NCBI RefSeq assembly: GCF_030816505.1
Contig: NZ_JAUSYB010000001.1
Span: 2,728,001 to 2,792,000 of the forward strand
Direction of reading: 5' to 3'
DNA: 64,000 nucleotides
Source of the DNA: Microbacterium sp. W4I20
Lineage (GTDB): Bacteria; Actinomycetota; Actinomycetes; Actinomycetales; Microbacteriaceae
The position numbers and the translations under genes are program-made. Within the stretch, counting starts at the first letter, position 1, and the number at the start of each line of letters is the position of its first letter. Below, one piece after another: positions 56,847 to 64,000 of the stretch. Below the pieces are notes generated by a model. The model was given only the letters and a program-made list of their open reading frames with translations, made no database searches and was not told the DNA's origin.

Positions 56847-57323
56847 TCAGCGCGGGAGCAGCCCGCTCCCGTCGCGCAGCTCGAAGACCAGCTGCGTCTC
56901 GGTGCCCCGCACGACCGCGTGCACGGTGATGTGCTCGAGCACGATGTCGCGGAGCGCCGTGGCGTCCTGCACCGCGACGTGCACGAGGAAGTCGTCGACG
57001 CCCGCGACGTGGAACACCTGCAGCACCCGCGGGATGCTCACCAGCGCGTCGAACAGGGCGGTGACCTTGGCGCCGGTGTGGTTGGCGAGGCGCACCTTGA
57101 TGATGGCCTGCAGCGGGAACCCGAGCGCTGCGCCGTCGACGCGGATGCGCGTGTCGCGGATGACCCCGCGCTCCCGGAGCGACCGCACCCGGTGGGCGCA
57201 GGTCGATTCGGCCAGACCCAGGCGATGAGCGAGCGCCTTGTTCGTGACCTCGGCGTCGCGGGTGAGGACGGCGAGGAGTTCGAGGTCGATTTCGTCGAGC
57301 GGAGTGCCTTGTGCTTTCGACAA
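56847..57323 (-). CDS. Lrp/AsnC family transcriptional regulator
   Basis: This is a 158-residue protein. The N-terminal winged helix reads LDEIDLELLAVLTRDAEVTN then KALAHRLGLAESTCAHRVRS. The C-terminal RAM domain (VFHVAGVDDFLVHVAVQDAT) usually binds an amino acid such as leucine or methionine. It is divergent from the trans-sulfuration enzyme gene at 57436, the typical arrangement for a methionine- or cysteine-responsive regulator controlling the degradative or biosynthetic lyase. Confidence 0.93.
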   Translation of the reverse strand: MSKAQGTPLDEIDLELLAVLTRDAEVTNKALAHRLGLAESTCAHRVRSLRERGVIRDTRIRVDGAALGFPLQAIIKVRLANHTGAKVTALFDALVSIPRVLQVFHVAGVDDFLVHVAVQDATALRDIVLEHITVHAVVRGTETQLVFELRDGSGLLPR

Positions 57324-57435
57324 CGAATGCCTCCCCCTATGGTGTGATCTCGCCCAGAATAGCGAATCAGGTCCGTTTCATGGCGGATGCTGTCGCAGAT
57401 CAGCGCCGCGTTCGTGTTTCCGGCAACGTGGAGGG

Positions 57436-58695
57436 ATGACTGCATCGCTGCATCCTGACACCGTCGCCGTTCACAGCGGCCGCGCCGACCTCGAAGCTCT
57501 CGGGGTGCATGCACTGCCGATCGACCTCTCCACCACGAATCCGCTGCCCGACATCGAGCGCGGGGGCGACTCGTACGAGGCGATGGCCACCGGGGGCCGG
57601 CCACCCGCCGACGGAAGCATGGTCTACACCCGCCTGTGGAACCCGACCGTGGCCCGCTTCGAAGACGCGCTCGCCGAACTGGAGCACGCCGAGGCGTCGG
57701 TCGCCTTCGCCTCGGGCATGGCGGCGATGACGGCCGTGATCCTCGCTCACACCAACGCGGTCGGCAAGCGTCACGTCGTCGCGGTGCGTCCGCTCTACGG
57801 CGGCACCGACCATCTGCTCGCCTCTGGACTGCTCGGCGCCGAGGTCACCTACTGCCATCCGCACGAGGTCGCCGAGGGCATCCGCCCCGACACCGGGCTG
57901 GTCGTGGTCGAGACGCCGGCGAACCCGACACTCGACATCGCCGACATCGCCGAGGTCGTTCGTCAGGCCGGCGGCGTGCCCGTGGTGGTCGACAACACCT
58001 TCGCCACCCCGGTGCTCCAGAACCCGCTCGATCATGGTGCGGCGATGTCGCTGCACAGCGCCACCAAGTACCTCGGCGGGCACGGCGACGTGATCGCCGG
58101 CGTCGTGGCGTGCAGCGAGAAGACCGCGCAGGCGCTCCGGCGTGTGCGGGCGGTGACTGGCGGTCTGCTGCATCCGCTCGGCGCCTACCTGCTGCACCGC
58201 GGGCTCACGACGCTGCCCGTGCGCATGCGCCAGCAGCAGGAGAACGCGCGCCGCATCGTGCAGTGGCTGATCGACCGGCCCGAGGTCGCCGAGGTCTTCT
58301 ACCCCGGACTCGACGGTGATCCGCGCGGAGTCCTCCAGCGGCAGATGCGCGGGACCGGCGCCGTGATCGCGATGCGGATGCGCGGCGGGTATGCCGCAGC
58401 ATCCGCCATCACGTCGAAGACGGACTTGTTCACGCATGCCGTCTCGCTCGGCGGGGTGGATTCGCTGATCCAGCATCCTGCTGCGCTCACTCACCGGCCG
58501 GTGCCGCCCGAGGCGCGCCCCGCCGCCGACGTGCTCCGTCTCTCGATCGGGCTCGAGAACGCCGACGACCTGATCGCCGACCTCGCTCAGGCCTTCGCGG
58601 TGGCTTCCGCTCCGTCCGCCCCCTCCGCCGAGCCGCCCCTCCTTGTGCGAGCCGCCCCCGTGAGTGACGCGCTCAACGGGGCGGCTCGCACATAA
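57436..58695 (+). CDS. Cys/Met-metabolism PLP enzyme (gamma-lyase or gamma-synthase type)
   Basis: This is a 419-residue enzyme of the cystathionine gamma-synthase/gamma-lyase/methionine gamma-lyase fold. The start at ATG 57436 is supported by GGAG just before it. PLP-binding Lys211 is in HSATKYLGGHGDVIAG; YTRLWNPTVARFEDALAELE and ASGMAAMTAVIL lie in the N-terminal half, and RLSIGLENADDLIADL lies near the end. Divergence from an Lrp gene favours methionine gamma-lyase or a similar catabolic role. The last 20 residues are encoded by a fold-back array that covers the stop codon. Confidence 0.9.
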   Translation: MTASLHPDTVAVHSGRADLEALGVHALPIDLSTTNPLPDIERGGDSYEAMATGGRPPADGSMVYTRLWNPTVARFEDALAELEHAEASVAFASGMAAMTAVILAHTNAVGKRHVVAVRPLYGGTDHLLASGLLGAEVTYCHPHEVAEGIRPDTGLVVVETPANPTLDIADIAEVVRQAGGVPVVVDNTFATPVLQNPLDHGAAMSLHSATKYLGGHGDVIAGVVACSEKTAQALRRVRAVTGGLLHPLGAYLLHRGLTTLPVRMRQQQENARRIVQWLIDRPEVAEVFYPGLDGDPRGVLQRQMRGTGAVIAMRMRGGYAAASAITSKTDLFTHAVSLGGVDSLIQHPAALTHRPVPPEARPAADVLRLSIGLENADDLIADLAQAFAVASAPSAPSAEPPLLVRAAPVSDALNGAART

Positions 58696-59181: not shown

Positions 59182-59315
59182 GCCGCCGAGCGTACGAGGG
59201 CCGTGAGTCGCGCGTGTTACAGCAGGTTTCGTTCTTCCCCCGCCCTCTGCTCACGGCGGATCTGCCGCAGGCGGATACGGCACCGAGAGCGTGAGAGGCG
59301 GCGGATGCTGGGGAC

Positions 59316-59930
59316 ATGAGCGAAGACAACCCCATCCCGCAGTTCGGCCCCGAAGCCCGGCGCGCGCTGTTCCACGAGCGGGTGCTCGTGCTCGACGGCG
59401 CCCTCGACGACGACAACGGCACGCTGCTCATGACGCAGCTGCTCGCGCTGTCGGCCGAGGATCCGGCCACCGACATCGCCCTCTGGATCCACTCGCCCGG
59501 CGGCTCCGTGCCGTCGATGCTCGCGATCCGCGACCTGATGAAGCTGGTGCCGAACGACGTCTCGACGCTCGTGCTCGGCATCGCCTACAGCGCCGGGCAG
59601 TTCCTCCTCTCGGCAGGCACGAAGGGCAAGCGGCGGGCCCTGCCGCACGCCCGCATCCTGATGCATCAGGGGTCCGCCGGCATCGGCGGCTCGGCGGGCG
59701 AGATCGAGACCCAGGCCGACGACCTCCGGCACATGCGCGACACCGTGCTCGGCCTGATCGCCGCCGACACCGGGCAGCCGATCGAGCGCATCTTCGAGGA
59801 CTCCCTGCACGACCGCTGGTACACCGCCGCCGAGGGCCAGGCCTACGGCTTCATCGACGAGATCGTCGGCTCGATGGCCGACATCATGCCGCGACGGCGC
59901 GCCCGCGTCGGACTGGGGGTCAGCGCATGA
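59316..59930 (+). CDS. ClpP-family peptidase, catalytically complete subunit
   Basis: This is a 204-residue ClpP-like serine peptidase. SPGGSVPSMLAIRDLM is the handle region, Ser92 (GIAYSAG) aligns with the nucleophile, His117 (LMHQGS) with the general base, and Asp166 (DRWYT) completes the triad. The His is followed by Gln-Gly rather than the usual Gln-Pro. It should assemble with other ClpP-type subunits into the proteolytic barrel fed by ClpX or ClpC. The second clpP gene overlaps its stop (ATGA), so the two are made together. Confidence 0.92.
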   Translation: MSEDNPIPQFGPEARRALFHERVLVLDGALDDDNGTLLMTQLLALSAEDPATDIALWIHSPGGSVPSMLAIRDLMKLVPNDVSTLVLGIAYSAGQFLLSAGTKGKRRALPHARILMHQGSAGIGGSAGEIETQADDLRHMRDTVLGLIAADTGQPIERIFEDSLHDRWYTAAEGQAYGFIDEIVGSMADIMPRRRARVGLGVSA

Positions 59931-60523
59931 GCACCTACTCGATCCCGAATGTGATCGTGCAGCATCCGCGCGGCGAGCGCATCATGGACGTCTACTCGCA
60001 CCTGCTCGCCGAGCGCGTCATCTACCTCGGCACCGGCATCGACGCGGGTGTCGCCAATGCGCTCATCGCGCAGCTGCTGCACCTCGACGCCGACAGCCCC
60101 GAGAGCGGCATCCAGTTCTACATCAACAGCGAGGGCGGGGATCCGGGCGCGGCGCTCGCGATCTACGACACCATGCAGCACATCCGTCCGCGCATCGCCA
60201 CGACGTGCGTCGGCCAGGCGATCGGACCCGCGGCGCTGCTGGTGGCGGCGGGAGCCCCGGGGGAGCGGTCGGCGCTGGCGCACGCGCGCATCGTGCTGCA
60301 CCAGCCGGCGGGTCAGTCCCGCGGGGCCATCCCCGACCTCATCCTGGCGGCCGATGAAGTGGTGCGCGTGCGGTCCGACATGGAAGAGATCCTCGCCAGG
60401 CACAGCGGGCGCACGGTCGAGGCGCTGCGCGCCGACACCGATCGCGACCGCGTGTTCACGGCATCCGCAGCGCTCGATTACGGACTCATCGACACGGTGC
60501 TCGCCCGACGCACAGCCGGCTGA
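59927..60523 (+). CDS. ClpP-like subunit lacking the catalytic serine
   Basis: This is a 198-residue ClpP-fold protein starting at ATG 59927. NSEGGDPGAALAIYDTM, His125 (VLHQP) and Asp174 (DRVFTA) are kept, but the nucleophile position reads GQAIGPAAL, with Gly100 where ClpP has Ser in GQAASMG. It is therefore probably inactive and structural, like ClpR subunits of cyanobacteria and plastids. Co-translation with an active subunit suggests a mixed barrel with altered gating or partner choice. Confidence 0.9.
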   Translation: MSTYSIPNVIVQHPRGERIMDVYSHLLAERVIYLGTGIDAGVANALIAQLLHLDADSPESGIQFYINSEGGDPGAALAIYDTMQHIRPRIATTCVGQAIGPAALLVAAGAPGERSALAHARIVLHQPAGQSRGAIPDLILAADEVVRVRSDMEEILARHSGRTVEALRADTDRDRVFTASAALDYGLIDTVLARRTAG

Positions 60524-60545
60524 GGGATTCCGCGGCTCAGGCGGC
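60515..60545. terminator. Hairpin containing both stop codons (clpP pair and XRE gene)
   Basis: Ten-base arms (60515-60524 and 60536-60545, nine pairs) enclose an 11-base loop. The TGA of the second clpP gene lies in the left arm and the TCA of the XRE gene in the right arm. Confidence 0.6.
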
Positions 60546-60893
60546 CAGGGCGAACGCCGCGCGTCCGGCGGAGACGAGGGCGGATGCCGGCGCCATGGCC
60601 GTCCGCAGCTCGTCGGCGACCGCGCTGGTGAGTTCGATCAGCGACGTCTCGAGGGCGCCGCTGATCGCCGCGATCATCTCGCTCGACGGCTCCTTGAGTC
60701 CGCGCTCGACCTCGGACAGATACTGCGGGGAGACGCCGGCCTTCTCGGCCGTCTCGGTGAGGGTCTCTTCGCGTTCATGACGCCGGCGGCGCAGCTGGTC
60801 GCCGAGAAGCTGGCGCCACAGCGGCTCGGGGTCGCTCGGCTGGGGACGGCGGTCGGGACGGGGTGCGCGCGGGAACGGGACGATGTCGGCCAT
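60537..60893 (-). CDS. ClgR/PopR-like XRE family regulator with C-terminal Ala degron
   Basis: This is a 118-residue protein. After a Pro/Arg-rich start, residues 30-90 form a single helix-turn-helix (LTETAEKAGVSPQYLSEVER, then GLKEPSSEMI), the form seen in ClgR and PopR regulators of clp genes in actinobacteria. The protein ends Phe-Ala-Leu-Ala-Ala, like ClgR and PopR whose terminal alanines make them ClpP substrates. It is convergent with the clpP pair and is probably their activator, turned over by ClpP in a feedback loop. A 23-base perfect palindrome lies upstream. Confidence 0.88.
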   Translation of the reverse strand: MADIVPFPRAPRPDRRPQPSDPEPLWRQLLGDQLRRRRHEREETLTETAEKAGVSPQYLSEVERGLKEPSSEMIAAISGALETSLIELTSAVADELRTAMAPASALVSAGRAAFALAA

Positions 60894-60952: not shown

Positions 60953-61088
60953 GCAGGCGCGCGTCCGGACTTCCACAGCTGGCTGGAAAAGCGTGAACGC
61001 CCGGTTGATAGGTTTCTGCGCGCTGGCGTCACGGCTTTCCTGCTGACGTCCGGCACATGGCCCTGAGTGGGGACGTGGGGGGTAGGGC

Positions 61089-61124
61089 GGGGAGTGAAGC
61101 GATCTGGGGTGGATTTCACTCCCC
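61089..61124. repeat. Inverted repeat upstream of the secreted repeat protein
   Basis: Perfect 10-base arms GGGGAGTGAA (61089-61098) and TTCACTCCCC (61115-61124) lie 39 bases before the start codon at 61163. Together with the palindrome at 60930 this is the only structure noted in the 269-base divergent gap. Confidence 0.5.
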
Positions 61125-61162
61125 ATCCCTTCGCCCGACAACGAAGAGTGCGGAGTCGACTG

Positions 61163-64000
61163 GTGATCAACGGGTTCAGAGGGTTCATCCGAAACGCGGG
61201 CATCGTGCCTGCGAACACCGAGGATTCGACGGGCCCGCAGGTTCTGCCGTCGCGCAGCATCCGGCGAGGGAAGGCGTCCCGCCCGGTCGCAGTGGTCGCC
61301 GCCGCCGTGCTGCTCGCCACCGGGCTGACGGCTGTCGGTGCACCCTCCCCGGCGGCGGCCGCGGCGCCGCTCGCGTGCCTGAACACGGTGTACTTCTCGA
61401 ATGCCACCGCCGGTAACGTCGGGCAGCTCGACCTCACCACCGGCACCGTGGCCCCCGCGCCCGTCTTCGCGACGCCGGCCGGGGCAGGCGCCGCGACCAA
61501 CCAGCTCGGCATCGGGGCGGATGGCGCTCTCGCGATCACCGGCACCAGCACCAGCGTCATCGAGTACGCGCCTGCGGCGAGTGCCGAGGGCACGGTCACC
61601 TTCGCTCCGAAGACCACCGGCGTCGGCGGCGGCACGATGGGTGCCGTCAATCCGCTCACCGGTCTGTACTACTACGGCGGCTTCGCCGGCGCCACGGTCA
61701 ACATCTACGTCTATGACCCTGCGACGGATGCTGCACCGGCAGGGCCGGTCGCCTCGTTCGCAGCGGTGAATCCGCCGGGCGCCAACGGCGACATGGCCTT
61801 CGACAAGACCGGACGGCTCTACTTCGTCGCCGGCGGCGCGACCGAGGCGGCGCTCTATGTGGTCGACGGAGCGATCCCGACCTCCGGCACGGGGACGACG
61901 CTGACGTCCCGCGAGATCTCCCGCGGCTCGACCACTGTTCCCACCAACGGCATCGCCTTCGGCTCCGACGGCTTCCTGTACCTCGGCGGCAGCACCGTGC
62001 TGCAGAAGACGAACCCGATCACGGGTGCGCCCACCGGCACGTCGTTCACGCTCACGGGTGTGACGTCGACCGACCTCGGTTCCTGCGCCAACCCGTCATC
62101 CGCCACGGTGGTCACCGGATTCGACGGCCCCCGCGCCCAGGACTCCGACCAGGTGCAGGTCACCGTCGACGGCGGTTCGTACGGTCCGCACGGTTCCACC
62201 CCCGACTTCCCGGTGAGCACCTCCGGTGGCGACGGCAGCGGGGTTCCCAGCGAGCCCGGCCTGATCCTGCCGGGCGAGACGTACACGGTCCGCCAGACGC
62301 CGGTCGGCACCACTGACCTGAACGACTACCGGACCACCTGGTCCTGCACCGACGCGGACGGCACGGTCGTCGCGAGCGGCACCGGCAACACCGCATCGTT
62401 CACGGCCCCGGCCGGCACGGACGGCGCCAACATCGTCTGCGCCTTCGTCAACGAGCTGCCGCCGCCCGTGGCTGTTCCGGATGCTGCGCCGGGCCCCTTC
62501 GGCTCCCCGATCACGGTTCCCGGTGCGACGAACGACGAGCCGGGCACCGGCACGATCCTTCCCGAGCAGACCGTGTTCACGTCTCCGGACGCGACCGACG
62601 GAGGCAAGCGCCTCGTCACCCCGGACGGTGTCTGGACCGTCGGCACCGACGGGCGCATCACGTTCACCCCGGCACCGGGATTCAGCGGCGACGCCGTCAC
62701 CGAGTACCGGATCGTCGACGACAACCGGCAGACGTCGACCACGACCGCGACCGCCACGGTGCGCCCCGGCCCCTCCGCCGCCGCCGACACCGCGACGACC
62801 ACGCAGGGGACCAGCATCCAGATCCCCACCCTCGGCAATGACGTGCCCGGGCAGAACGCCGACGGCACGCCGGGGACGATCCCGCCGGCACCCGTCCTCT
62901 TCCCGACGACGGGACGGCCGGCCGGAGCGACGGTCAGCGCCGACCGGCGGCGCCTCGAGGTTCCCGGCGAGGGCGTCTACACGATCGACTCGGCCACCGG
63001 CGTCGTCACCTTCGCGCCGGTCCCGACCTTCGATGGCCCGACGACCACCCCGGTCGCCTACGGCTTCACCGACAACCACGGCAACCCGGCATCTTCGACC
63101 ATCACCGTGTCGGTCACCGCGGTGACCCCCACGGCGGTGAACGACTCCGCGAACACTCCCGCCGGCACCCCGGTGACCGTCGATGTCGTCGACAACGACC
63201 TGGCGGGCCCCGGCGGCGCGATCGTGTCGACCTCGACCGTGTTCACCGGCACGGGTGCGACCGACGGCGGCAAGACCCTCGTCACCCCGCAGGGCACGTG
63301 GCGCGTCACGTCCGGGGGCGAGGTCGAGTTCACGCCGGCCGACGGCTTCTCCGGCACGGCGACGACCCCGTACCGCATCACCGACGAGAACGGCCAGCAG
63401 AGCACCGCGAACGTCTCGGTCACCGTGCGCCCGGGCCCCGTCGCCGAGGCCGACGTCGCGTCGACCCCGCAGAACGTCGACGTGGAGATCCCGGTCCTCG
63501 GCAACGACGTGCCCGGTACCACGGCCGACGGAGGCCCCGGCGCGTTCGACCCCGACACGCTGCGGTTCTCCGTGACGCCGGGACTCCCGGCCGGCAGTGC
63601 CGTGAGCGACGGCGGGCGCGGGCTCACCGTGCCCGGTCAGGGTGTCTACACGTTCGATCCCGCGACCGAGAACGTCACGTTCGACCCCGAGCCCGGGTTC
63701 ACCGGCCCCGCGACGCCGGTCACCTACACGGTGACCGACTCGTTCGGGAACGACGCCTCCACGACGGTCGGCGTCTCGGTCATCCCGATCACGCCGACGG
63801 CGACCGGTGACGCGGCGAAGACCCCCGGCGGGGTCGCCGTGACCATCGATATCCTCGAGAACGACGACCCGGGCGCCCCGTCGGCCCCGCTCGTGCCCGG
63901 CTCGGTCGTCTTCCCCTCTCCGGACGCGACCGCGGGCGGCAAGACCCTCGTCGTCCCCGGCGAAGGCACCTGGACCGTCGGCGACGACGGATCGGTGACC
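61163..64000 (+). CDS. Large secreted CshA-like repeat protein (3' end outside window)
   Basis: At least 946 residues are encoded before the window ends. GTG 61163 is chosen because GGAG lies seven bases upstream; GTG 61148 is also in frame. A Sec-type signal is visible (RRGKASRPVAVVAAAVLLAT then Ala-rich). Residues about 70-310 look like a beta-propeller (LNTVYFSNATAGNVGQLDL), and residues 315-430 like an SpaA/prealbumin-type domain. From 440 onward, CshA-type fibril repeats alternate (ATDGGKRLVTPDGVWTVG, and later ATDGGKTLVTPQGTWRV) with a two-domain period of 222-223 residues. Such proteins are cell-surface adhesins or fibrils. The anchor would lie beyond the window. Confidence 0.85.
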   Translation, partial: MINGFRGFIRNAGIVPANTEDSTGPQVLPSRSIRRGKASRPVAVVAAAVLLATGLTAVGAPSPAAAAAPLACLNTVYFSNATAGNVGQLDLTTGTVAPAPVFATPAGAGAATNQLGIGADGALAITGTSTSVIEYAPAASAEGTVTFAPKTTGVGGGTMGAVNPLTGLYYYGGFAGATVNIYVYDPATDAAPAGPVASFAAVNPPGANGDMAFDKTGRLYFVAGGATEAALYVVDGAIPTSGTGTTLTSREISRGSTTVPTNGIAFGSDGFLYLGGSTVLQKTNPITGAPTGTSFTLTGVTSTDLGSCANPSSATVVTGFDGPRAQDSDQVQVTVDGGSYGPHGSTPDFPVSTSGGDGSGVPSEPGLILPGETYTVRQTPVGTTDLNDYRTTWSCTDADGTVVASGTGNTASFTAPAGTDGANIVCAFVNELPPPVAVPDAAPGPFGSPITVPGATNDEPGTGTILPEQTVFTSPDATDGGKRLVTPDGVWTVGTDGRITFTPAPGFSGDAVTEYRIVDDNRQTSTTTATATVRPGPSAAADTATTTQGTSIQIPTLGNDVPGQNADGTPGTIPPAPVLFPTTGRPAGATVSADRRRLEVPGEGVYTIDSATGVVTFAPVPTFDGPTTTPVAYGFTDNHGNPASSTITVSVTAVTPTAVNDSANTPAGTPVTVDVVDNDLAGPGGAIVSTSTVFTGTGATDGGKTLVTPQGTWRVTSGGEVEFTPADGFSGTATTPYRITDENGQQSTANVSVTVRPGPVAEADVASTPQNVDVEIPVLGNDVPGTTADGGPGAFDPDTLRFSVTPGLPAGSAVSDGGRGLTVPGQGVYTFDPATENVTFDPEPGFTGPATPVTYTVTDSFGNDASTTVGVSVIPITPTATGDAAKTPGGVAVTIDILENDDPGAPSAPLVPGSVVFPSPDATAGGKTLVVPGEGTWTVGDDGSVT

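Follow-up and report, generated by a model that had tools for sequence, protein, structure and literature searches.

A Microbacterium clpP3-clpP4 locus with a PopR-like regulator and a ClpP4 predicted to be catalytically dead

Why should a bacterium that has a housekeeping clpP1P2 pair also carry a second pair of clpP genes, one of which encodes a subunit without the nucleophilic serine? The question is raised by a locus of Microbacterium sp. W4I20 that lies in a stretch of 64,000 nucleotides, hereafter the window. Two clpP-type genes overlap there by 4 bp (59927-59930): clpP3 (59316..59930, + strand) encodes a ClpP1-type subunit (PF00574, 177.8 bits) without the axial-loop motif, and clpP4 (59927..60523, +) a ClpP2-type subunit (PF00574, 204.1 bits) in which the axial loop is present. 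Sequence and alignment place the catalytic residues of ClpP3 at Ser92 (codon 59589..59591, +; surroundings LGIAYSAGQFLL), His117 (59664..59666, +) and Asp166 (59811..59813, +). The same alignment columns hold Gly100 (codon GGA, 60224..60226, +; surroundings VGQAIGPAALLV), His125 (60299..60301, +) and Asp174 (60446..60448, +) of ClpP4, and a second aligner gave identical triad calls. Read directly, ClpP4 has no Ser, Thr or Cys at residues 95-114, the nearest being Cys94. The preliminary description of this DNA had reported the overlapping pair, a complete triad in the first product and Gly100 in place of Ser with His125 and Asp174 kept in the second; genes, overlap, numbering and residues are all as it claimed, in the sequence and in both alignments. 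We predict that ClpP3 forms a catalytic ring and ClpP4 an ATPase-docking, catalytically dead one.

The 4.31-Mb genome has four ClpP genes, clpP3-clpP4 and the housekeeping pair (C1:143965-145187), whose triads are intact. A clpX gene is present, with a score above the NCBIfam cut-off. Two larger ATPases are also encoded, L166 and L167; on the partial stretches read, their best scores are with ClpB models and stay under the cut-off. Of the two, only L167 shows a GGPVGF loop, by which rule we take L167 to be ClpC and L166 to be ClpB; the genome probably also encodes ClpC. Elsewhere in the window, a long reading frame (61067-64000, +; at least 978 aa) continues past the window end, with a signal-like start, diverged domains of about 100 aa and no tandem repeat at the DNA level; its product is presumably a surface fibril or adhesin-like protein. 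Upstream of the pair, we take the gene at 56847-57323 (-) to be an Lrp/AsnC-like regulator, divergent from what is presumably a PLP-dependent gamma-lyase-like gene (57238-58695, +).

Next to the pair we found a regulator and an operator-like site, both of which the preliminary description had overlooked. The popR-like gene (60537..60893, -; 118 aa) encodes an HTH (XRE) regulator, a ClgR paralogue (PF01381, 42.1 bits, above its cut-off), that reaches 64 bits with the NCBIfam ClgR model, below the cut-off of 170, as for a paralogue; the next ClgR-like gene of the genome is at C1:732983-733207. The reference for the name is the neighbours of Streptomyces clpP3-clpP4 and not S. lividans PopR itself. 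The protein ends in FALAA (60540..60554, -), the same five residues that end the tag of the organism's own tmRNA (AETKRNDFALAA; tmRNA gene C1:723008-723377). Among 218 ClpP3-ClpP4 loci of Actinomycetota, surveyed below, the stretch fetched contains a PopR-like gene at 182, on the opposite strand in 180, and none was found within that stretch at the other 36. The last two residues are AA in 176 of the 182, and the proteins of many genera end in YALAA, FALAA or LALAA. For PopR, the C-terminal double alanine is described as the likely recognition site (PMC9775585), and the C-terminal Ala-Ala here is likewise a predicted degron.

The operator-like site TCTGCTCACGGCGGATCTGCCGCAGGCGGA (59246..59275, +) lies at -70 to -41 from the clpP3 ATG, and differs at 3 of 24 fixed bases from the S. 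lividans PopR motif, TCTGCC-3N-GGCGAATCTGCC-3N-GGCAGA (PMC9775585). It is the sole match with up to 3 mismatches in the 64-kb window (none in 100 shuffles) and also in the 4.31-Mb genome (none for a reversed-pattern control). The operator was scored at 141 loci, including a few that turned out not to encode ClpP3, and in 120 of them the best site is at -70 to -72 from clpP3. It outscores the rest of the locus in 128 of the 141, equals it in 7 and falls short of it in 6, and has 6 or more mismatches in 73. Exact operators, with the same neighbours, were found at three of six named Streptomyces loci, one of them from S. fungicidicus.

Is the glycine a peculiarity of this strain? A ClpP4 orthologue, defined as a match above the gap before 2e-49 in the genus listing, is found in 146 of 295 Microbacterium genomes (61-100% identity, some cut by contig ends), and we inspected 90 of these 146 loci (the 30 best and 60 picked across the identity range). 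ClpP3 keeps Ser-His-Asp in all 90. At position 100, 79 of the ClpP4 have Gly, 6 have Ala and 5 have Ser, so the Ser-to-Gly change, whose conservation across the genus the preliminary description had left to be checked, is indeed widespread; these counts support Ser loss as the common state of ClpP4 in Microbacterium. His125 is additionally lost in three, and one ClpP4 is incomplete. That description had also held that homologues with Ser here would count against its reading. They exist (5 of 90 in Microbacterium, 33 of 218 with an intact triad in the wider survey), but they are a minority, and for this reason the glycine of the window is not to be read as an error. Furthermore, clpP4 is under purifying selection (dN/dS 0.04-0.10, 13 pairs), which rules it out as a pseudogene, and with clpP3 at 0.04-0.18 (13 pairs) both look like working genes. 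The five Microbacterium ClpP4 with Ser sit inside the serine-less clade, beside five with Ala, and keep His and Asp, a possible natural regain of the nucleophile. M. halotolerans ClpP4, for which the triad alone was scored, has Ser at position 100 as well.

Beyond the genus, we drew loci from Microbacteriaceae (34 of the 34 non-genus orthologues listed), from phylum and class, and from five plasmid stretches; 60 class-level loci were picked by hand from the listing and the others were returned by the search. After removal of 5 duplicates and of 13 loci at which no two clpP genes adjoin, 224 non-duplicate pairs were scored. Six intact pairs were excluded from the ClpP4 count, five of them by the tree and the sixth, which was left out of the tree, as a canonical plasmid pair with trigger factor upstream and 44% identity. 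This gives 218 ClpP3-ClpP4 pairs, a sample that leans to Microbacterium (90 pairs). The downstream-subunit tree holds 133 of 223 subunits, and the other 90, near relatives of its rows, were taken as ClpP4.

The loss is one-sided. The triad of the upstream subunit is intact in 224 of 224 scored pairs, and that of ClpP3 in 218 of 218, whereas 176 ClpP4 are without Ser or His, 9 have Asp alone changed and 33 are intact. Outside Microbacteriaceae (92 pairs) the corresponding ClpP4 numbers are 55, 9 and 28. A PopR-like neighbour is present at all 33 loci with intact ClpP4, which therefore resemble this system at a stage preceding the loss or with no loss at all; triad loss is thus not required for the system. 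Ser is missing from 159 of the 224 downstream subunits, 140 of which retain His and Asp (GHD 89, AHD 50, WHD 1). It is gone in Microbacterium and many other lineages, and Streptomyces lost His instead; altogether each of the three residues is affected, with many replacements. None of the housekeeping controls, 21 ClpP1 and 21 ClpP2, has a broken triad; they come from 21 genomes, of which 19 belong to Microbacteriaceae. At six loci of one family, Ser is replaced by Glu, a charged residue at the place of the nucleophile, and Asp by Asn or His.

A named sample that overlaps the main set gave a similar picture (78 of 80 loci scored, two being missed by a coordinate filter): ClpP3 is intact in 78 of 78, and 71 of the 78 ClpP4 are without Ser or His. 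The nucleophile position is Gly in 12 of 14 Microbacterium, Trp in two Nocardioides, and Ala in Actinomadura, Nonomuraea, Rhodococcus, Tsukamurella, Kribbella and all Nocardia but one; His is replaced by Gly in 5 of 5 Streptomyces ClpP4. Janibacter limosus, Microbacterium halotolerans, Gordonia and Cellulomonas are among the seven intact. The strand next to the active site (ClpP4 residues 67-72, 60125-60142) reads NCEGGD or NSEGGD in 120 of the 159 serine-less downstream subunits, at the position of the NSPGGS found in 58 of the 65 that bear Ser.

How often did the loss occur? On a tree built without the triad columns, intact and broken states change at least 9 times (Ser 5, His 6, Asp 8). Because this is a quick tree, and 53 of 140 forks are unresolved in its sister tree, our claim from these sequences is limited to several independent triad losses in ClpP4. 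A single loss event, at least in a simple form, was rejected: some lineages lack only Ser, others only His and others only Asp. A serine-less ClpP4 clade of 65 rows mixes seven families, and clpP3-clpP4 with a PopR-like neighbour is carried on plasmids of Streptomyces fungicidicus, Embleya, Tsukamurella tyrosinosolvens and Prescottella equi; the Embleya plasmid ClpP4 is 72% identical to that of the window, more than any Streptomyces copy seen. The mixture of families and the plasmid copies suggest transfer.

We then asked which kind of subunit ClpP4 is. In a 68-row tree, ClpP3 with ClpP1 is split from ClpP4 with ClpP2 at an SH-aLRT of 100 (79 for the ClpP4 group alone), a grouping that fits duplication of the whole clpP1P2 operon. 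Of the 224 pairs, 219 have the N-terminal axial-loop motif in the downstream subunit and none has it in the upstream one. The strict pattern finds 0 of 21 housekeeping ClpP2, whose loop is worded differently, so that the motif serves to tell ClpP4 from ClpP3 and carries no information on loss. Tyr stands at pocket column Y76 in 217 of the 224 downstream subunits and in 47 of the 224 upstream ones. At E. coli Y74/Y76/F96, the ClpP4 of the window has Q/Y/H, with one of three aromatics left, and its ClpP3 has A/W/L. The split expected between a docking and a catalytic subunit is therefore seen for the loop and one Tyr, while the pockets of the window are aromatic only in part. The predicted model of ClpP4 (pLDDT 91.2) has an ordinary ClpP fold, with chains of M. 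tuberculosis ClpP1P2 entries as its best PDB matches (TM 0.91).

Collectively, these observations make it likely, in our judgement, that the locus encodes a clpP3-clpP4-popR backup Clp protease, switched by PopR and built from a ClpP3 cutting ring and a dead ClpP4 docking ring. In Streptomyces, ClpP1P2 with ClpX degrades PopR, and clpP3P4 stays silent unless ClpP1P2 fails (PMC9765437, PMC12607617). Here, PopR would be an activator with an ssrA-like C-terminal tag, and because of this tag the housekeeping ClpX-ClpP1P2 should destroy it. On failure of ClpP1P2, PopR would survive, bind the operator at 59246-59275 and switch on clpP3-clpP4, whose products would assemble into a double-ring barrel. 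Seven ClpP3 would supply all the cutting, and seven ClpP4, their nucleophile lost and their axial loop and pocket Tyr kept, would hold the ATPase and gate entry. We infer the regulation at this locus, the ring composition, the ATPase docking and the inactivity of ClpP4. Against the backup reading weigh the single aromatic left in the ClpP4 pocket, the 33 of 218 ClpP4 with a complete triad, the imperfect operators (3 mismatches here, 6 or more at 73 of 141 loci) and the 36 of 218 loci whose fetched stretch shows no PopR-like gene. By analogy, ClpP3P4, with docking features missing from its cutting ring and the nucleophile from its docking ring, looks like a natural end point of the ClpP1P2 division of labour: Streptomyces ClpP1P2 depends on the triad of ClpP1 and the pocket of ClpP2, can do without the Ser of ClpP2, and receives its ATPases on ClpP2 (PMC9765437), and an M. 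tuberculosis ClpP2 S110A strain grows and infects like the control (PMC9067928).

Why the nucleophile was lost is a separate question. One answer is pure decay, in which catalysis by the docking ring was never needed and the triad erodes neutrally with no new function; we see the case for it as evenly balanced. It concerns the cause of the loss and not the barrel, and can hold together with the backup-protease reading. ClpP2 catalysis is dispensable in Streptomyces (PMC9765437) and M. tuberculosis (PMC9067928), every triad residue of ClpP4 is hit with many replacements, and neutral erosion would be enough to explain the loss. However, the equally dispensable housekeeping ClpP2 is intact in 21 of 21, although that control is narrow with its 19 Microbacteriaceae, His and Asp persist in the 140 of 159 serine-less subunits, and clpP4 is still under purifying selection.

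A more speculative answer, which we hold to be rather improbable, is that ClpP3P4 is an inhibitor-proof spare protease and the dead ring a selected trait. PopR would call up ClpP3P4 exactly when natural products of competitors poison ClpP1P2; the ClpP3 ring would be without the ADEP-binding aromatics (A/W/L), and the ClpP4 ring would have discarded the nucleophile that beta-lactones trap. Streptomyces ClpP3P4 is reported to be ADEP-insensitive (PMC12607617), and beta-lactones to be lethal to S. coelicolor without clpP3 and clpP4 (PMC9775585, a review). If true, the selected-trait answer could explain the repeated origin of the dead ring and its spread between actinobacterial families, plasmids included.

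The form of the barrel allows other arrangements, and the preliminary description, which took ClpR as its reference, had left open whether active and inactive subunits form separate rings or are interleaved. In a ClpR-like barrel, ClpP3 and ClpP4 would alternate within each ring and the dead subunit would tune its active neighbours. Rings of this kind exist in Synechococcus (R-P3-R-P3-R-P3-R; PMC4673316), and clpP3 and clpP4 are co-encoded with a 4-bp overlap. But ClpP4 groups with ClpP2 and ClpP3 with ClpP1, the core of mycobacterial ClpP1P2 is described as having two differing ring faces (PMC4416901), and the axial loop and, in part, the pocket features are divided between the two proteins, as two ring faces predict; we judge interleaving to be unlikely. 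By analogy with mycobacterial and Streptomyces ClpP1P2, one active and one inactive ring is favoured over interleaved subunits. The dedicated mixed Clp barrel first proposed, in which one subunit is active and the other inactive, stands as the best reading, and Ser loss is the common state in Microbacterium; ClpR as its reference gives way to Streptomyces ClpP3-ClpP4-PopR, the closest relative by gene order, operator and regulator.

Slightly less probable still is cross-assembly, in which ClpP3 or ClpP4 would join housekeeping ClpP1 or ClpP2 and replace or poison them. There is a precedent in S. hawaiiensis ClpP-ADEP, which pairs with ClpP2 and blocks ClpP1 (PMC12607617), and some genomes have 3 or 5 ClpP matches, so that some actinobacteria may have unpaired extra ClpP genes. 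Against this, weakly, clpP3 and clpP4 overlap or adjoin at the scored loci, where adjacent pairs only were kept. Finally, it is very improbable that another residue is the nucleophile of ClpP4, or that the glycine is a sequencing error or local mutation. A few relatives have a Ser one or two places off, but ClpP4 of the window is free of Ser, Thr and Cys around the site (95-114), and the Microbacterium loci, with Gly or Ala in 85 of 90, rule out an error or mutation confined to this strain.

Engineering the nucleophile out of ClpP2 was found to do no harm in two well-studied actinobacteria (PMC9067928, PMC9765437). Evolution has made a like change repeatedly and in the docking-type subunit only, the partner being intact in every scored pair. 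With these natural one-sided losses, the role of the second Clp ring becomes directly testable in natural pairs, which include close Microbacterium relatives differing at one residue. Our results also suggest that, in environmental actinobacteria, natural products aimed at ClpP face a backup that is both widespread and regulated.

How does the locus compare with known systems? ClpR of cyanobacteria and plastids is likewise a triad-less ClpP paralogue beside an active ClpP, in interleaved rings (PMC4673316). The ClpP4 of the window shares the missing catalytic residue by which ClpR is recognised, having Gly100 with His and Asp kept. Its score with NF009204/PRK12552, which we take to be a ClpR-type model, is 160.7 of the 263 needed. 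Descent from ClpR is not supported, as ClpP4 groups with actinobacterial ClpP2 in a tree built without ClpR sequence, and on that tree ClpP4 is probably a separate lineage. Odd triads in ClpP pairs are also described for PpClpP1 of Pseudomonas plecoglossicida (Ser-His-Pro; PMC12900304) and Listeria ClpP1 (Ser-His-Asn; PMC9765437), both of which keep Ser and His and stay weakly or conditionally active (PMC12900304, PMC9765437). Because some activity remains in such enzymes with Asn or Pro as the third triad residue (PMC12900304), changes of Asp alone in ClpP4 need not kill it.

Triad-less actinobacterial alleles are in print: d'Andrea et al. (2022) mention a clpP allele without triad residues in N. 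asteroides, S. coelicolor and L. interrogans (PMC9067928), in a section that lists species with neither locus nor regulator nor count. The N. asteroides and S. coelicolor alleles are probably ClpP4. The titles, abstract openings and passages that we searched contain no description of the locus in Microbacteriaceae and call no ClpP4 inactive, in agreement with the preliminary description, which knew of no case in this family. Relative to these texts, what is new is the Microbacterium locus with its operator and predicted degron, the recognition that the dead allele is ClpP4, and the counts by which the loss is recurrent and one-sided.

Closer in architecture is the asymmetric ClpP1P2 of M. tuberculosis and Streptomyces, in which one subunit cuts and ClpP2 docks the ATPases (PMC9067928, PMC9765437, PMC4416901); it keeps the nucleophile in both subunits, whereas here nature has removed it from one. 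Closest of all is Streptomyces ClpP3-ClpP4-PopR, with the same order of clpP3 and clpP4 followed by a convergent PopR-like ClgR paralogue, a PopR operator upstream, a regulator tail ending in AA and a separate clpP1P2. The operator is at -70 here, with 3 mismatches, and at about -135 to -185 in Streptomyces. At the loci seen, Streptomyces ClpP4 is triad-broken too, through His to Gly with Ser kept, while Microbacterium W4I20 has lost Ser and kept His.
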